Part shown: one piece after another, positions 35,890 to 59,304 of the stretch
Numbering within the stretch: the stretch's first letter is position 1
How the letters are laid out: every line of letters begins with the position of its first letter
Source: Microvirga arsenatis
Lineage (GTDB): Bacteria > Pseudomonadota > Alphaproteobacteria > Rhizobiales > Beijerinckiaceae
Assembly: GCF_009910705.1 (NCBI RefSeq)
Contig: NZ_JAAAXJ010000002.1
Coordinates: 248,001 to 312,000 of the forward strand
Direction: 5' to 3'
DNA length: 64,000 bases
The notes under the pieces: generated by a model
Database searches by the model: none
Seen by the model: the letters and a program-made list of their open reading frames with translations, nothing else
Told to the model about the DNA's origin: nothing
Position numbers and translations under genes: made by a program

Positions 35890-36082
35890 ATTTCTTCCAT
35901 GGCGCGCCGGACATAATGTCACATCAGAACCTGGAAAGCTCTGGAAACTCAACGTTGCGGCATAGCCCAGGACCGATACTGACGCGACGCATAGTCCGCT
36001 GACATAAATTCCCAATTTACAGACGTTTTATGAGTATCTTAGAACCTTCGCTCCGTCGGCAGATTGGGGGCAGAAGGGTACT

Positions 36083-38035
36083 ATGGCGCGCATTGAGGTT
36101 ACGGCTGCAAATTTTCCAGGCAAAGCTTTGCAGGGCTCAGGAGCGGATACCCTCGTGCTCGTAGGCGGCGGCACGTTCGACTTCGCCTATGTGACGCTGA
36201 ACGGATTTTCTGAGATCGTTGTCGAGGCGGAAGCTGCCAGATACACGACGGTGAAGATTGCGGGCGATCAACTCGATGGCATCACGTCGCTCAGCAGCGC
36301 GTATGAATACACAAACGTCTATTTGAGCGGCAGTACCATTGATCTGAGAGGCAAGACCTTCAGCAAGATCAGCGGCATTCACATCGATCAGGACAACGCC
36401 ACCGTTACCATCGACAACCTCGCTCTCGGCCTGAGGCTCAACGCGTTTGAGCGCCAAGGAGAGACGATCGTGCTCGACGGACCCATTGCAACGCCAACAG
36501 CCCGAGATGAGCTTCATCGCCATGGGTTCGACACCATTGTACAAGGCACGACCGTTTGGACGGACTTATCGCCAACCCTCTCCAATCTCAACGGCGCGCG
36601 TCTTTATGTAAAGGAAAGTGAGAGCGTCCGTTTAGATCCCGAGGGCGACGCCTTCGTATCGGACGACAAGAACTCGATAGCTTTTCTCGACATCAGTTTG
36701 TCGAACAAAGGCTACTACTTCACAATGAATCATTTTGAAATCGGAAGTGATTTCCTGATCGCTTCTGACTACTTCAGCCAATCCTTGTATTACAAGGGTT
36801 CTGCCATCGCTAGCATCAGATCAATCGGGCACCAGGGGACGACGGCGCGAATTTCGTTTAACGCCTCCTCGACGCCGGAGATCGTGTCTGAGTTCCTACA
36901 GAATCTCGCTTACACTCCGGGCAACTTCATTCACTATAGAAATGTCGATGTTGCAATCACAGCCTTCGATCAAGGAGGGCGCAGGTCGGGAACGGCGCTC
37001 TTCAACGTGACCGCCGAGGTGAATTGGGCGCCGACCGAGCCAACACTGACCGGGACTTCTATTGTCGAGAATGCGGTCGGTGGAACCGTCGTCGGAACTC
37101 TCAAGGCAACTGATGCCAACAATGATCCCGTGAGCTATCAGCTCCTGGACGACGCTGGAGGGCGCTTCATCGTTCAAGGCGACAAGATCGTCGCCTCCGG
37201 CAACGTTCCGTTGGATCACGAAGTCGCAACCGAGCATTTCATCACCGTCGTTGCATCTGACGGCAAGGTGAGCGGCCAATCGGAAACCTTTAAAATCGCC
37301 ATTCTCAATGTCAGGGACGAGCCGAACGTTGCTCCTTCGCAACCATCCCTTACCGGCGCTTCAATTGCAGAGAATGCGAGCTCCGGTGCCGTTGTCGGCA
37401 TCCTCAAGGCCACCGACGCCAATGGAGACTTGGTGACCTACAAGCTGACCAGTGACGCAGAAGGGCGCTTCAGCGTCGTAGGGAATCAGGTTGTGGTTTC
37501 TGGAACGACCCCACTCGATTTCGAGAAGGCCTCAACGCACACGATTAGCATCGTTGCCAGCGATGGGGATATGAACAGCCTGCCTGCTACTTTCGCCATT
37601 TCTGTTACCGATGTCATGGAGAAGCTCCCTGGCACGAAAGGCAAGGACATACTTGCCGGTACAGTGGGCCAGGATCTGATGAACGGCTATCTGGGTAACG
37701 ACACTCTGACCGGTGGCGGCGGCAAGGATGTTTTCGCGTTCACCACCAAGCTCGGCAAGAGCAACATCGATAGGCTCACGGATTTTCTGCCCAAGCAGGA
37801 CAAGATCCATCTTGATAATGCAATCTTCAAGAAGCTGCCCAAGGTCGGTGCCCTGAAGAAGGAAGTATTCTACCAAGGCAGCGCGGCTCATGATAAGGAT
37901 GACAAGATCATCTATAACCAGAAAACGGGTGCTCTCTATTACGACCTGGATGGGACCGGAGCTTCGAAAGCTGTGCATTTCGCGACGCTCTCGAACAAAG
38001 CCAATCTTAAATACTCGGACTTCTTGGTGATCTAA
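36083..38035 (+). CDS. cadherin-repeat protein with RTX-type C-terminus
   Basis: A 650-residue protein of unknown role. The N-terminal 300 residues are beta-rich with no known catalytic motif. Two cadherin-like repeats follow (about 313-413 and 414-512; each has a SIxEN start, ATDAN calcium motif and xxVASDG). A single degenerate RTX nonapeptide block comes next (LGNDTLTGGGGKDVF) and then a C-terminal domain of the kind used as a type I secretion signal. No Sec signal is present. It is probably exported by an ABC-type (type I) system encoded elsewhere and binds calcium at the cell surface. Codon use and base content are visibly less GC-rich than the neighbours, which suggests acquisition. The start has AAGGG five bases upstream. 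Confidence 0.82.
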   Translation: MARIEVTAANFPGKALQGSGADTLVLVGGGTFDFAYVTLNGFSEIVVEAEAARYTTVKIAGDQLDGITSLSSAYEYTNVYLSGSTIDLRGKTFSKISGIHIDQDNATVTIDNLALGLRLNAFERQGETIVLDGPIATPTARDELHRHGFDTIVQGTTVWTDLSPTLSNLNGARLYVKESESVRLDPEGDAFVSDDKNSIAFLDISLSNKGYYFTMNHFEIGSDFLIASDYFSQSLYYKGSAIASIRSIGHQGTTARISFNASSTPEIVSEFLQNLAYTPGNFIHYRNVDVAITAFDQGGRRSGTALFNVTAEVNWAPTEPTLTGTSIVENAVGGTVVGTLKATDANNDPVSYQLLDDAGGRFIVQGDKIVASGNVPLDHEVATEHFITVVASDGKVSGQSETFKIAILNVRDEPNVAPSQPSLTGASIAENASSGAVVGILKATDANGDLVTYKLTSDAEGRFSVVGNQVVVSGTTPLDFEKASTHTISIVASDGDMNSLPATFAISVTDVMEKLPGTKGKDILAGTVGQDLMNGYLGNDTLTGGGGKDVFAFTTKLGKSNIDRLTDFLPKQDKIHLDNAIFKKLPKVGALKKEVFYQGSAAHDKDDKIIYNQKTGALYYDLDGTGASKAVHFATLSNKANLKYSDFLVI

Positions 38036-55790: not shown

Positions 55791-56582
55791 TTGGACGCCA
55801 TCGGCTTCGACATGATCGCGGCGCTCGCCGCGGTCTCCTTTTTGGCGGGCTTCGTCGACGCGATCGCCGGGGGCGGCGGGCTCCTGACCGTGCCCGCCCT
55901 GCTGCTTGCCGGCCTCGATCCGGCCCAGGCCATCGCCACCAACAAGGTGCAGGGCTCCGTGGCCGCGGCCTCCGCCACCTACACCTTCGGCCGGAGGGGC
56001 CTGATCGACTGGAGAAGGGCGTGGGGTTTCACCCTCGTGGCCTTTGCGAGCAGCGTGGCCGGGGCGCTCTGCGTGCAGTTCCTGCCGCGCGCGGTGCTCG
56101 AGGTGCTGATCCCGCTTCTCCTCATCGTCATCGCCCTCTACTTCGCTTTTTCGCGCAAGGTGAAGGACGAGGACGCCCAGGCCCGCATGACGGCTCTCGC
56201 CTTCGGGCTCACCGCCCCGGTGGCGGTGGGCTTCTACGACGGCATCTTCGGGCCGGGCGCCGGCTCCTTCTACATGCTCGCCTTCGTGACCCTTCTCGGC
56301 TACGGGGTGGTCCGGGCCACCGCCCACACCAAGCTCGTCAATTTCGCGAGCAATTTCGGCAGCCTCCTTCTTTATGCGGCGACAGGCGCGGTGGTCTGGC
56401 CGCTGGGCCTCGCCATGTCGGCGGCCTCCCTGCTCGGGGCCCAGATCGGATCGCGGCTGGCCCTTCGGCTCGGCTCCCGGCTCATCCGCCCCCTGCTGGT
56501 CCTGGTATCGAGCCTGATGGCCCTGAGGCTCCTGCTCGACCCTGCCAATCCGTGGCGGCAGGCCCTTCGGGGGCTTTTTTGA
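55791..56582 (+). CDS. TSUP-family (TauE/SafE, YfcA-like) membrane transporter
   Basis: A 263-residue inner-membrane protein with about eight hydrophobic segments and the repeated TSUP features FVDAIAGGGGLLTVPALLLAG in the first half and GFYDGIFGPGAGSF in the second. The family exports or imports sulfite, sulfonates or other organic anions; the substrate is unknown. The start is TTG 55791, three bases after the hydratase stop; ATG 55812 is possible. The last codons form a terminator hairpin with the stop codon just after the T-run. Confidence 0.85.
   Translation: MDAIGFDMIAALAAVSFLAGFVDAIAGGGGLLTVPALLLAGLDPAQAIATNKVQGSVAAASATYTFGRRGLIDWRRAWGFTLVAFASSVAGALCVQFLPRAVLEVLIPLLLIVIALYFAFSRKVKDEDAQARMTALAFGLTAPVAVGFYDGIFGPGAGSFYMLAFVTLLGYGVVRATAHTKLVNFASNFGSLLLYAATGAVVWPLGLAMSAASLLGAQIGSRLALRLGSRLIRPLLVLVSSLMALRLLLDPANPWRQALRGLF
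56562..56580 (+). terminator. terminator overlapping the 3' end of the TSUP gene
   Basis: GCCC, a TTCGG loop, GGGC, then six T's. The stem and T-run lie inside the last coding codons; the TGA stop follows the T-run. The stem is short, so efficiency is uncertain. Confidence 0.55.
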
Positions 56583-56602
56583 CGCGCAAAGGCCCATGGA
56601 CG

Positions 56603-56631
56603 TTGACGTTCACAGGGTTCGCGTCTATAAG
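56603..56631 (+). promoter_or_regulatory. sigma-70 promoter of rpsT
   Basis: TTGACG, a 17-base spacer, then TATAAG. This gives a leader of about 118 bases before the rpsT start. Confidence 0.7.
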
Positions 56632-56642
56632 CCGCCTCACAT

Positions 56643-56665
56643 GAGCCCGCGCGTCCCGCGGGCTC
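56643..56665 (+). promoter_or_regulatory. leader hairpin at the 5' end of the rpsT transcript
   Basis: Stem GAGCCCGCG / CGCGGGCTC with a CGTCC loop, starting within about ten bases of the likely transcription start. It has no T-run, so it is more likely an RNA-stability or S20 feedback element than a terminator. Confidence 0.45.
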
Positions 56666-56755
56666 TTCGGTTTCCATGCAATCAACCGATCGCTGCCGGA
56701 GCTCTCCAGGGCTTGAGCTTGGCCATCGGGATTTTGAAAAGAACGAGGATGGGCC

Positions 56756-57022
56756 ATGGCCAACACCGTGTCCGCCAAGAAGATGACCCGCAAGATCGCG
56801 AAGCGCACCGCGATCAACAAGTCGCGTCGCAGCCGGATGCGGACCTTCATCCGCAAGGTTGAGGAGGCGATCGCCTCCGGCAACCAGGCCGAGGCTGTGG
56901 CGGCTCTGCGCGCCGCCGAACCGGAGATGATGCGCGCGGCCCAGAAGGGCATCGTGCACAAGAACACCGCGTCGCGGAAGGTCTCGCGCCTCGCGCACCG
57001 CATCAAGACGCTGAGCGCTTAA
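56756..57022 (+). CDS. rpsT: 30S ribosomal protein S20
   Basis: An 88-residue basic, helical protein ([26 protein letters not shown] start) that binds 16S rRNA early in 30S assembly. The Ala/Lys/Arg-rich composition and ending [14 protein letters not shown] fit S20. ATG 56756 has AGGATGGG upstream. It has its own promoter and terminator. The position just before dnaA is a strong syntenic marker in alphaproteobacteria. Confidence 0.97.
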
Positions 57023-57059
57023 AAAGCAGCTTCGAAGCTGTCTTCTCATCACCGATCAG

Positions 57060-57084
57060 ACCCGGCCGAAAGGCCGGGTTTTTT
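57060..57084 (+). terminator. rho-independent terminator of rpsT
   Basis: Stem ACCCGGCC / GGCCGGGT with a GAAA tetraloop followed by a T-run, 38 bases after the rpsT stop. Confidence 0.92.
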
Positions 57085-57115
57085 CATGTCCGGCTTCAGG
57101 TTCTGCGTCTAAATT

Positions 57116-57124
57116 TTATCCACA
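57116..57124 (+). promoter_or_regulatory. DnaA box (perfect)
   Basis: TTATCCACA, an exact match to the consensus bound by DnaA domain IV. Confidence 0.8.
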
Positions 57125-57174
57125 TGAGAGCTTGACTTTATCCCCGTTCGACAGGGTGAAGGCTGCGCGGCTCA

Positions 57175-57433
57175 GATTCAAACTGCACACAAAAGATTCT
57201 TCATCCTCAACACTTTAGCAGGCAAAGCATTGCGAAGCATCAGAATCACCCTGCGATTCGACACGAATCGCGCGTGATTCAAGGTTGCGCGAAAACTCTT
57301 TTTTCGGATCCCGGGCCGACCCGCGCGACACAGTGAATCACCTGAAGAGTCAGGACTTTAAAGCCGAGTTTGAAAACCTGTGGACGAGGCCGTGGACACA
57401 ATCACGGGTTTGCCGGCGCCCGTGACTCGACTC
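57175..57433. promoter_or_regulatory. cluster of ten GANTC (CcrM-type) sites
   Basis: GANTC starts at 57175, 57195, 57243, 57255, 57265, 57276, 57335, 57347, 57424 and 57429. Four in a row (57243-57276) are 10-12 bp apart, that is, on one face of the helix. About one site would be expected by chance in this length. GANTC is methylated by CcrM in alphaproteobacteria and its methylation state times dnaA and ctrA expression in Caulobacter. Confidence 0.75.
57253..57271. promoter_or_regulatory. 8-bp inverted repeat within the GANTC cluster
   Basis: GCGATTCG, spacer ACA, CGAATCGC. Each arm contains a GANTC site. The form suits a dimeric regulator whose binding could be affected by adenine methylation. 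Confidence 0.5.
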
Positions 57434-57534
57434 GGCCGTATTGCACCCCCTCCTGCACCCTGTGTAAGGTCAACCTGCTTCAACGGCTCGCCGTTAAGTC
57501 ATTCACTCAACGATCGAACTAAACACACCATGCG

Positions 57535-57543
57535 TGGGGATAA
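57535..57543 (-). promoter_or_regulatory. DnaA box, one mismatch
   Basis: TGGGGATAA, reading TTATCCCCA on the minus strand; one base differs from the consensus. Confidence 0.55.
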
Positions 57544-57801
57544 GCTGTTGTTTCATTCCTTTAAGAAGCAGGCGAAGGCTGATCCTTTACCAAGGGGTAC
57601 ACTTGACAGACCTTGAGTGATCCAAAAGGGGGCGGCATCCGACGACCGTCTCCACTTAAAAACAGACGTATAATCTTTAGTACAATTTGGGGGCTCCACG
57701 TTCTGAACATCTTGTGAGGCAGCTGTGTCCGGGTGTTCAAAACGGGTCATGCGTGGGGGTTTCGGCCGTGTCAGGCATCGGAACCTCGTGGAGGGATGTT
57801 G

Positions 57802-59304
57802 ATGTATCGCAGCGACGATCACCGAACCTATGCCGCGTCCAGCGAGAACGGCATGGAGGTTCCGGGCGAGCAAACGGCAGCGGAGGTATGGGCGCGGGTG
57901 AAGCGCCGACTGCGGGCCGAGCTGGGCGAGGATATCTTCGCCAGCTGGTTCGGCCGCCTGGAGCTGGATTCGGTGATCGAGGGCTGCGCCTATCTCACGG
58001 TGCCCACCCGCTTCCTGAAGAGCTGGATCGAGTCCCACTATGCGGACCGCGTGCTGGCGGTCTACCGCTCCGAGGCCGGCAACGTGGAGCGCATCTCCAT
58101 CGGCGTGCGCAGCACCCTCGGCCGCGACCCGGCCGCTCAGCGCCGGGCGAGCGAGGCGCCGCGTCCTTCTCCCGCTCCCTCCATGGCCATGCCGACCAGC
58201 CCCGGCGAGATCAAGCTCCCTTCCTCGCCCGGTCCGCAAGAGGAGCGCGGCGAGTCCGGCGATCTCGGCGGAGCGCCGCTCGACCCGCGCCTCACCTTCG
58301 AAAGCTTCATCGTCGGACGCTCCAACGCGCTGGCCCACGCGGCCGCCGACCGGGTCGCCCATGCGCAGAACGGACAGGTGATCTACAACCCGCTCTACCT
58401 TCACGCGGGCGTCGGCCTCGGCAAGACGCACCTTCTTCATGCGATCGGCCATGCGGTGCGCGCGCAGGGACGCCGGGTGATCTATCTCACCGCCGACCGT
58501 TTCATGTACGGCTTCGTCGCTTCCCTGAAGGCCCAGACGTCGCTTGCCTTCAAGGAGCGCCTGCGCGGCATCGACCTGCTCATCATCGACGACGTGCAGT
58601 TCATCCAGGGCAAGCAGATCCAGCAGGAATTCGGCCATACCCTGAACGCGCTCATCGATGCGGGACGCCAGATCGTGATCGCCGCGGATCGTCCGCCGGC
58701 GGATCTCGAAAACCTCGACGAGCGGGTGCGCTCGCGCCTCGCCGGCGGGCTCGTGGTCGAGGTCAGCGCCCTGGACGAGGCGCTGCGCACCTCGATCCTC
58801 ACCACCCGCATCGAGGCGCTCAGGACCATTCATCCCAGCTTCGAGGTGGGGCCGAACGTGATCGCCTACGTGGCCCGCGCCATCACGGCCAACGGGCGCG
58901 ACCTGGAGGGTGCGGTGAACCGCCTGCTGGCGCATGCCACGCTCACCGGATCGGCCATCACCCTCGAGACCGCCGAGACCGCGATCCGCGATCTCGTGCG
59001 CAACCGGGAGCCGAAGCGGGTCAAGATCGAGGACATCCAGAAGCTGGTGGCCTCCCGCTACAACGTCTCCCGCTCCGACATCCTCTCGGAGCGCCGCACC
59101 GCCGCCGTGGTGCGCCCGCGCCAGATCGCCATGTACCTGTCGAAGGTGCTCACCCTGCGCTCCCTGCCGGAGATCGGCCGCCGCTTCGGCGGGCGCGACC
59201 ACACCACCGTGCTCCATGCGGTGCGCAAAATCGAGAAGGCCTTGGGCGAGGACAATGCGCTCTCCGACGAGGTCGAGCTCCTGAAAAGGATGCTGCAGGA
59301 GTAG
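57802..59304 (+). CDS. dnaA: chromosomal replication initiator DnaA
   Basis: A 500-residue AAA+ initiator. Domain I is about 25-110, a proline-rich linker follows (about 115-160), and the AAA+ core has Walker A GVGLGKTH (203-210), [11 protein letters not shown] and sensor motifs. The domain IV helix-turn-helix carries the DnaA signature [15 protein letters not shown]. The start ATG 57802 has GGAGGG about seven bases upstream; ATG 57796 is too close to that site, and GTG 57733 is unsupported. The upstream GANTC and DnaA sites suggest methylation and autoregulation. dnaN follows. Confidence 0.97.

Follow-up and report, generated by a model that had tools for sequence, protein, structure and literature searches.

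Why does the DNA between rpsT and dnaA of Microvirga arsenatis carry ten GANTC sites, the target of the methyltransferase CcrM, within 259 bp? The window, that is, the whole stretch of DNA analysed, is 64,000 nucleotides long and corresponds to positions 248001-312000 of contig C12; coordinates are those of the window unless a contig is named. The GANTC sites start at 57175, 57195, 57243, 57255, 57265, 57276, 57335, 57347, 57424 and 57429. These are the positions given by an earlier reading made from the sequence only (the sequence-only reading), and a direct check of the sequence found all ten to be correct. No other GANTC is present in the 710 bp between the rpsT stop (57022) and the GTG at 57733. 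The features of the region are listed in Table 1. The 13-mer TTAGCAGGCAAAG is very conserved across the aligned Microvirga and matches no recognised motif. Elsewhere, positions 36001-38000 have a GC content of 0.537, compared with 0.669 for the whole window, and are possibly foreign DNA.

Table 1. Features of the rpsT-dnaA intergenic region (window coordinates) and the likely chromosomal origin (contig coordinates).
Feature	Position	Strand	Remarks
rpsT	56756-57022	+	upstream neighbour; terminator-like stem at 57058-57081
Perfect DnaA box TTATCCACA	57116-57124	+	conserved in the alignment
Array of ten GANTC (CcrM target) sites	57175-57433	.	upstream of dnaA
Conserved 13-mer TTAGCAGGCAAAG	57215-57227	.	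one exact copy in contig C12
Four-site GANTC block	57243-57280	.	near-helical spacing of 12, 10 and 11 bp
Pair GAATC / GAGTC	57335-57351	.	12 bp apart; within longer conserved elements TGAATC and AGAGTCAG
DnaA-box-like TCGTCCACA	57379-57387	-	two mismatches; inside conserved CTGTGGACG
Tandem GACTCGACTC	57424-57433	.	7 bases upstream of the candidate -35 (putative promoter)
Candidate dnaA promoter TTGCAC-N16-TGTAAG	57441-57468	+	proposed from alignment conservation
Conserved inverted repeat in the dnaA leader	57478-57498	+	directly after the putative promoter
DnaA-box-like TTATCCCCA	57535-57543	-	one mismatch
dnaA	57733-59304	+	Pfam DnaA domains; start uncertain, either GTG 57733 or a later codon such as ATG 57853
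Likely oriC	C12:572263-572622 (L193 2263-2622)		between hemE and the PF03618 gene

The probability that chance or base composition produced the array is negligible. GANTC occurs at 1.54 per kb in the 1.62 Mb of the genome that was sampled, or 0.40 per 259 bp, and AT-rich 259-bp segments (GC ≤0.62) have a mean of 0.60 with the dnaA and hemE regions counted in; the earlier estimate of about one site by chance was fair. From the dinucleotides of the intergenic region itself, 3.4 sites are expected per 710 bp. At least ten over the full 710 bp turned up in 26 of 20,000 shuffles, but none of the 20,000 placed ten inside 259 bp. The array is also kept in 38 genomes, and this genus-wide conservation argues against chance. 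The array upstream of dnaA is real and conserved, and chance is not the cause.

The helical phasing that had been described applies to the single four-site block. The gaps before this block are 20 and 48 bp, and those after it 59, 12, 77 and 5 bp; the phasing therefore does not extend through the array. A near-palindrome spanning 57243-57280 was set aside, as GANTC is itself palindromic and, of the 37 genomes with the site at 57276, 31 have GAATC there.

The density of GANTC was compared across 1,623,585 bases, 32% of a 5.05-Mb draft genome in 73 contigs, comprising the whole of C12, sections of C1, C67 and C72, and the opening 20 kb of each of 19 other contigs. The densest 260-bp clusters were those at dnaA (ten sites), C12:572362 (nine) and C72:10799 (six), followed by six clusters with five. 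The second lies immediately before hemE and next to a COG1806-type gene, an arrangement usual for oriC in alphaproteobacteria, and the third (L160 10799-11054, contig C72) is directly upstream of gcrA. Inspection by eye of the longest reading frames near the six five-site clusters revealed no recognisable cell-cycle gene. The best cluster among seven control palindromes of like composition held eight sites (CANTG). The unusual density emphasised in the sequence-only reading thus withstood the comparison: nowhere else in the 1.62 Mb do 260 bp contain ten GANTC. The order was the same in a second genome, VF16 (460 kb read), with 11 GANTC at dnaA and seven upstream of hemE.

The dnaA region had also been proposed as a candidate origin, and this part of the earlier interpretation was not sustained: the origin features are found at hemE, 267 kb away. 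The hemE intergenic region contains a perfect TTATCCACA box, two TTAA-N7-TTAA boxes and 11 GANTC in 360 bp, a count that was seen in none of 20,000 shuffles. The flanking kinase/pyrophosphorylase gene (PF03618, E 6e-93) is presumably COG1806. Excerpts of a published study place the Caulobacter and Rickettsia origins between hemE and COG1806 (PMC1914354). The dnaA intergenic region has no TTAA-N7-TTAA CtrA box, and its neighbours are rpsT and dnaA, not hemE and COG1806. The chromosomal oriC is therefore probably at the hemE locus, about 267 kb from dnaA; the corresponding distance in VF16 is about 200 kb. The GC skew offers weak support and is not decisive alone; the placement of the origin rests on genes and boxes. 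The cumulative skew minimum within C12 is near 560 kb, and the change-point in VF16 is +180 kb from dnaA (p 0.04), while the contig itself has its change-point at C12:355 kb (p 0.26), closer to dnaA than to hemE. An origin in the rpsT-dnaA region itself is very improbable. Such a placement would suit the AT-richness, the perfect DnaA box, the other DnaA-like boxes and the change-point of this contig, but it is the hemE/COG1806 locus that has the conserved origin layout with CtrA boxes, of which dnaA has none, and the VF16 change-point is also against it.

The hemE locus of Microvirga resembles the Caulobacter Cori in its neighbours, perfect DnaA box, CtrA boxes and GANTC sites, and this likeness belongs to the hemE locus as the partner of the array, not to the dnaA region. 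Cori and other alphaproteobacterial origins of the hemE-COG1806 type are described in excerpts as carrying several GANTC (PMC1914354, PMC3973325). The Microvirga locus differs in its density: 25 genomes of the genus average 9.9 GANTC per 700 bp, and 14 others 4.8.

The two arrays are distributed differently within the order. In the 700 bp upstream of dnaA, the mean was 8.64 GANTC in the 25 same-genus genomes (M. arsenatis included), which overlap with the aligned Microvirga loci described below, and 1.44 in 16 genomes of the order's other families, two of which have five. Upstream of hemE (700 bp) the means were 9.88 in the 25 and 4.79 in 14 of the 16 (including one with only 27 bp), and control palindromes in the same comparison had means of 0.5-4.6. 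Of the sites upstream of hemE, two are present in every same-genus genome (25/25) and three in 22-23. The enrichment at hemE thus extends more widely, and the dense array at dnaA looks like a genus-level addition. Methylobacterium sp. Leaf118 has eight GANTC in 260 bp upstream of dnaA, and Methylorubrum-named loci have 2-6 (one locus, L068, has almost no upstream DNA). Eight Methylobacterium loci (L040-L046 and L056) have 1-2, with no rpsT found in the upstream DNA examined, and the rpsT-dnaA neighbourhood seems to be broken in them.

Conservation was assessed among the best 80 of 292 dnaA matches in named genomes, in which the top 38 loci (79-94% identity) and one further locus (72%) are all Microvirga. 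From these 39 Microvirga-named loci, L019 was dropped, as its contig begins within dnaA, and L039 was aligned and excluded from the counts as divergent (four GANTC), giving 38 counted genomes with M. arsenatis included. The sites at 57265 and 57335 are kept in all 38, those at 57276 and 57347 in 37, 57243 in 33, 57255 and 57429 in 27, 57175 in 24, 57424 in 17 and 57195 in M. arsenatis only, counts that are not independent because the genomes share ancestry. GANTC occurs at other alignment columns in some genomes, e.g. 57099 (15) and 57368 (17), and none of the 38 has fewer than five within the alignment. The idea that relatives would share the sites was borne out for nine of the ten and not for 57195. 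The spacing is also well kept: 57255-57265 is 10 bp in 27/27 genomes, 57265-57276 is 11 bp in 37/37, 57335-57347 is 12 bp in 36/37 and 57347-57429 is 82 bp in 23/27. The interval 57243-57255, where both sites are present, is 11 bp (six genomes) or 12 bp (18), and 57276-57335 is 59 bp (17) or 60 bp (20). An exact search for two core elements and the perfect DnaA box, in up to 1.7 kb upstream of dnaA at the 42 loci outside the 38 (L039 included) from the same best 80 of 292 matches, found none of these exact forms.

Substitutions at nine sites (57195 was left out) were scored by parsimony on a tree built from 2.8 kb covering dnaA and the DNA downstream of it. The fixed letters G, A, T and C required a mean of 2.5 steps, compared with 4.0 for N, 6.0 for the flanks and 5.6 for other columns. 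The expectation that sites would be kept while their flanks change was confirmed at 57265 and partly at 57255 and 57276, and it failed at 57335 and 57347, where several neighbours are conserved. The N at 57255 varies freely, with 15 steps against 3-7 at its other letters, while the N is invariant at 57265, 57335 and 57347, all of them among the four best-kept sites. This invariance suggests selection on more than methylation. The array thus seems to mix sites that serve as methylation targets with sites that belong to longer binding elements.

The conserved blocks might instead be bound by DnaA or some other protein with a recognition motif that includes GANTC by coincidence, methylation then being incidental. 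The fixed N letters and neighbours at several sites would fit such a motif, and GAWTCA (or its reverse) is present at 9/22 sites of both arrays against 20.4% in the AT-rich background (p 0.02, weak), with 4/10 at dnaA (p 0.13) and 5/12 at oriC (p 0.08). We consider this explanation unlikely: the freedom of the N at 57255 counts against it, and the two loci and the gcrA upstream region stand out for GANTC when the seven control palindromes do not.

A sigma-70 consensus scan of 57000-57900 returned no promoter and so did not recover the candidate dnaA promoter. If this candidate is right, the tandem is just 5' of the -35 and the other sites are 90-270 bp upstream. The inverted repeat that follows may fold into a leader hairpin or serve as an operator; it is 91.4% paired, its covariation was matched by 26 of 500 shuffles, and an Rfam search of 56500-58500 gave no match. 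An action of GcrA with sigma70 at the promoter-proximal sites, the distant sites being secondary, carries a small probability. GcrA is present in 41/41 genomes, and the site at 57429 fits the extended motif YGAKTCK at 7 bases from the candidate -35. However, this motif is present at 4/10 dnaA sites and 2/12 oriC sites compared with a background of 22.7%, which is no clear enrichment, and the tandem sites are less conserved (17 and 27/38) than the distant ones, next to a promoter that is itself putative. GcrA as reader of the entire array was rejected, as YGAKTCK is not clearly enriched.

The ccrM gene that the methylation interpretation calls for was found in the genome. A 398-aa protein with N6_N4_Mtase and RAMA domains matches Caulobacter CcrM (6pbd; E 2.2e-152), and the RAMA and GcrA (PF07750) families were both detected in the 41 genomes searched, namely M. 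arsenatis, 24 of the same genus and 16 of other families of the order. The SeqA family (PF03925) had no match in three genomes, and the E. coli control was detected. The DNA upstream of ccrM itself (L141, contig C67) contains no GANTC in about 330 bp, and a TTAA-N6-TTAA pair was noted there by eye; the Caulobacter ccrM promoter carries two GANTC according to excerpts of a review (PMC10073500).

The best explanation, which in our judgement stands about evenly between right and wrong, is that the array may be a methylation-sensed control region of dnaA, of the Caulobacter type but enlarged and paired with oriC. The observations behind it are the CcrM orthologue, the conserved and nearly fixed array, the adjacent conserved DnaA box and the second array at the likely oriC. 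In this scheme, CcrM would methylate the array sites late in the cell cycle, and the fork from oriC, about 267 kb away, would soon leave them hemimethylated. Transcription of dnaA would then change, by analogy with Caulobacter fall, until remethylation by CcrM. The methylation state would be read by at least one protein that recognises elements containing GANTC, and DnaA may feed back through its own boxes. Because oriC also carries an array, a joint reset of initiation and dnaA expression would be possible.

In favour of the control-region explanation, GANTC density ranks dnaA above hemE/oriC and gcrA in the 1.62 Mb, a CcrM orthologue is present in the genome, the RAMA and GcrA families occur in 41/41 genomes, and sites, spacing and DnaA box are conserved; the lower rate of change in the G, A, T and C letters than in N, flanks and other columns also points this way. 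Against it, the invariant N at 57265, 57335 and 57347 would not be required by methylation alone, the putative promoter fails the consensus scan and 57195 is not conserved. The region is similar to the Caulobacter crescentus dnaA promoter in having CcrM, GANTC upstream of dnaA, and GcrA and CtrA-type boxes in the genome, and may differ from that promoter in having ten sites in a conserved array. Methylation of GANTC reportedly affects transcription from the C. crescentus dnaA promoter (work attributed to Collier, 2007). Excerpts of a later paper state that the GANTC state directly affects dnaA transcription in Caulobacter (PMC3973325). Two findings from the literature count against the explanation: the steady-state level of DnaA is unchanged in Caulobacter without CcrM (PMC3667746), and CcrM is not needed there for the control of initiation (PMC3973325). 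An older model paper says the opposite for Cori in the excerpt consulted, methylation being needed for a new round (PMC2217572).

The layout also resembles that of E. coli Dam/SeqA, in which dense arrays of methylation sites, GATC there and GANTC here, are present at both the origin and dnaA. The methyltransferase and the motif are different, and because SeqA is absent from 3/3 genomes searched, the resemblance is one of layout only. A protein with a SeqA-like role could nevertheless bind hemimethylated GANTC arrays and hold oriC and dnaA off after initiation, a proposal we regard as quite unlikely. The twin arrays, with ten sites at dnaA and nine in 260 bp upstream of hemE, are reminiscent of E. 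coli, for which excerpts report eleven GATC at the origin and eight at dnaA (PMC10073500), and a SeqA counterpart has already been suggested for the GANTC-rich repABC origins (PMC6090056, PMC11514494, both in part). The proposal is weakened by the lack of SeqA family matches in the three genomes, by the lack of a candidate reader in this analysis, by the control of initiation without CcrM in Caulobacter (PMC3973325, in part), and by the lack of the dnaA array in most of the other families sampled. In excerpts of a review, the group is described as having no known SeqA homologue, with the possibility that another protein acts in this way (PMC6090056), and excerpts of another article draw the SeqA parallel for ori2 of Agrobacterium (PMC11514494). 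The repABC origins are likewise GANTC-rich replication-control DNA in alphaproteobacteria, but they belong to secondary replicons with RepC, unlike the Microvirga arrays at DnaA/oriC and dnaA (the same two sources, in part). It is similarly doubtful, though conceivable, that Microvirga has evolved an independent Dam/SeqA counterpart on CcrM and GANTC, with paired oriC and dnaA arrays, a hemimethylation reader and a once-per-cycle reset.

A survey of representative genomes gives averages of 0.4-1.5 GANTC per promoter upstream of cell-cycle genes (PMC2877005), and another paper counts as many as five or six for some promoters of ctrA (PMC8116508). None of the titles and abstracts listed by the literature searches dealt with GANTC arrays before dnaA in Microvirga or with paired oriC and dnaA arrays in alphaproteobacteria. 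The locus offers a natural case for asking whether alphaproteobacteria couple origin firing and dnaA expression through arrays of methylation sites, and since the dense dnaA array is Microvirga-wide and sparse or absent in most other sampled relatives, closely related strains provide natural comparisons.
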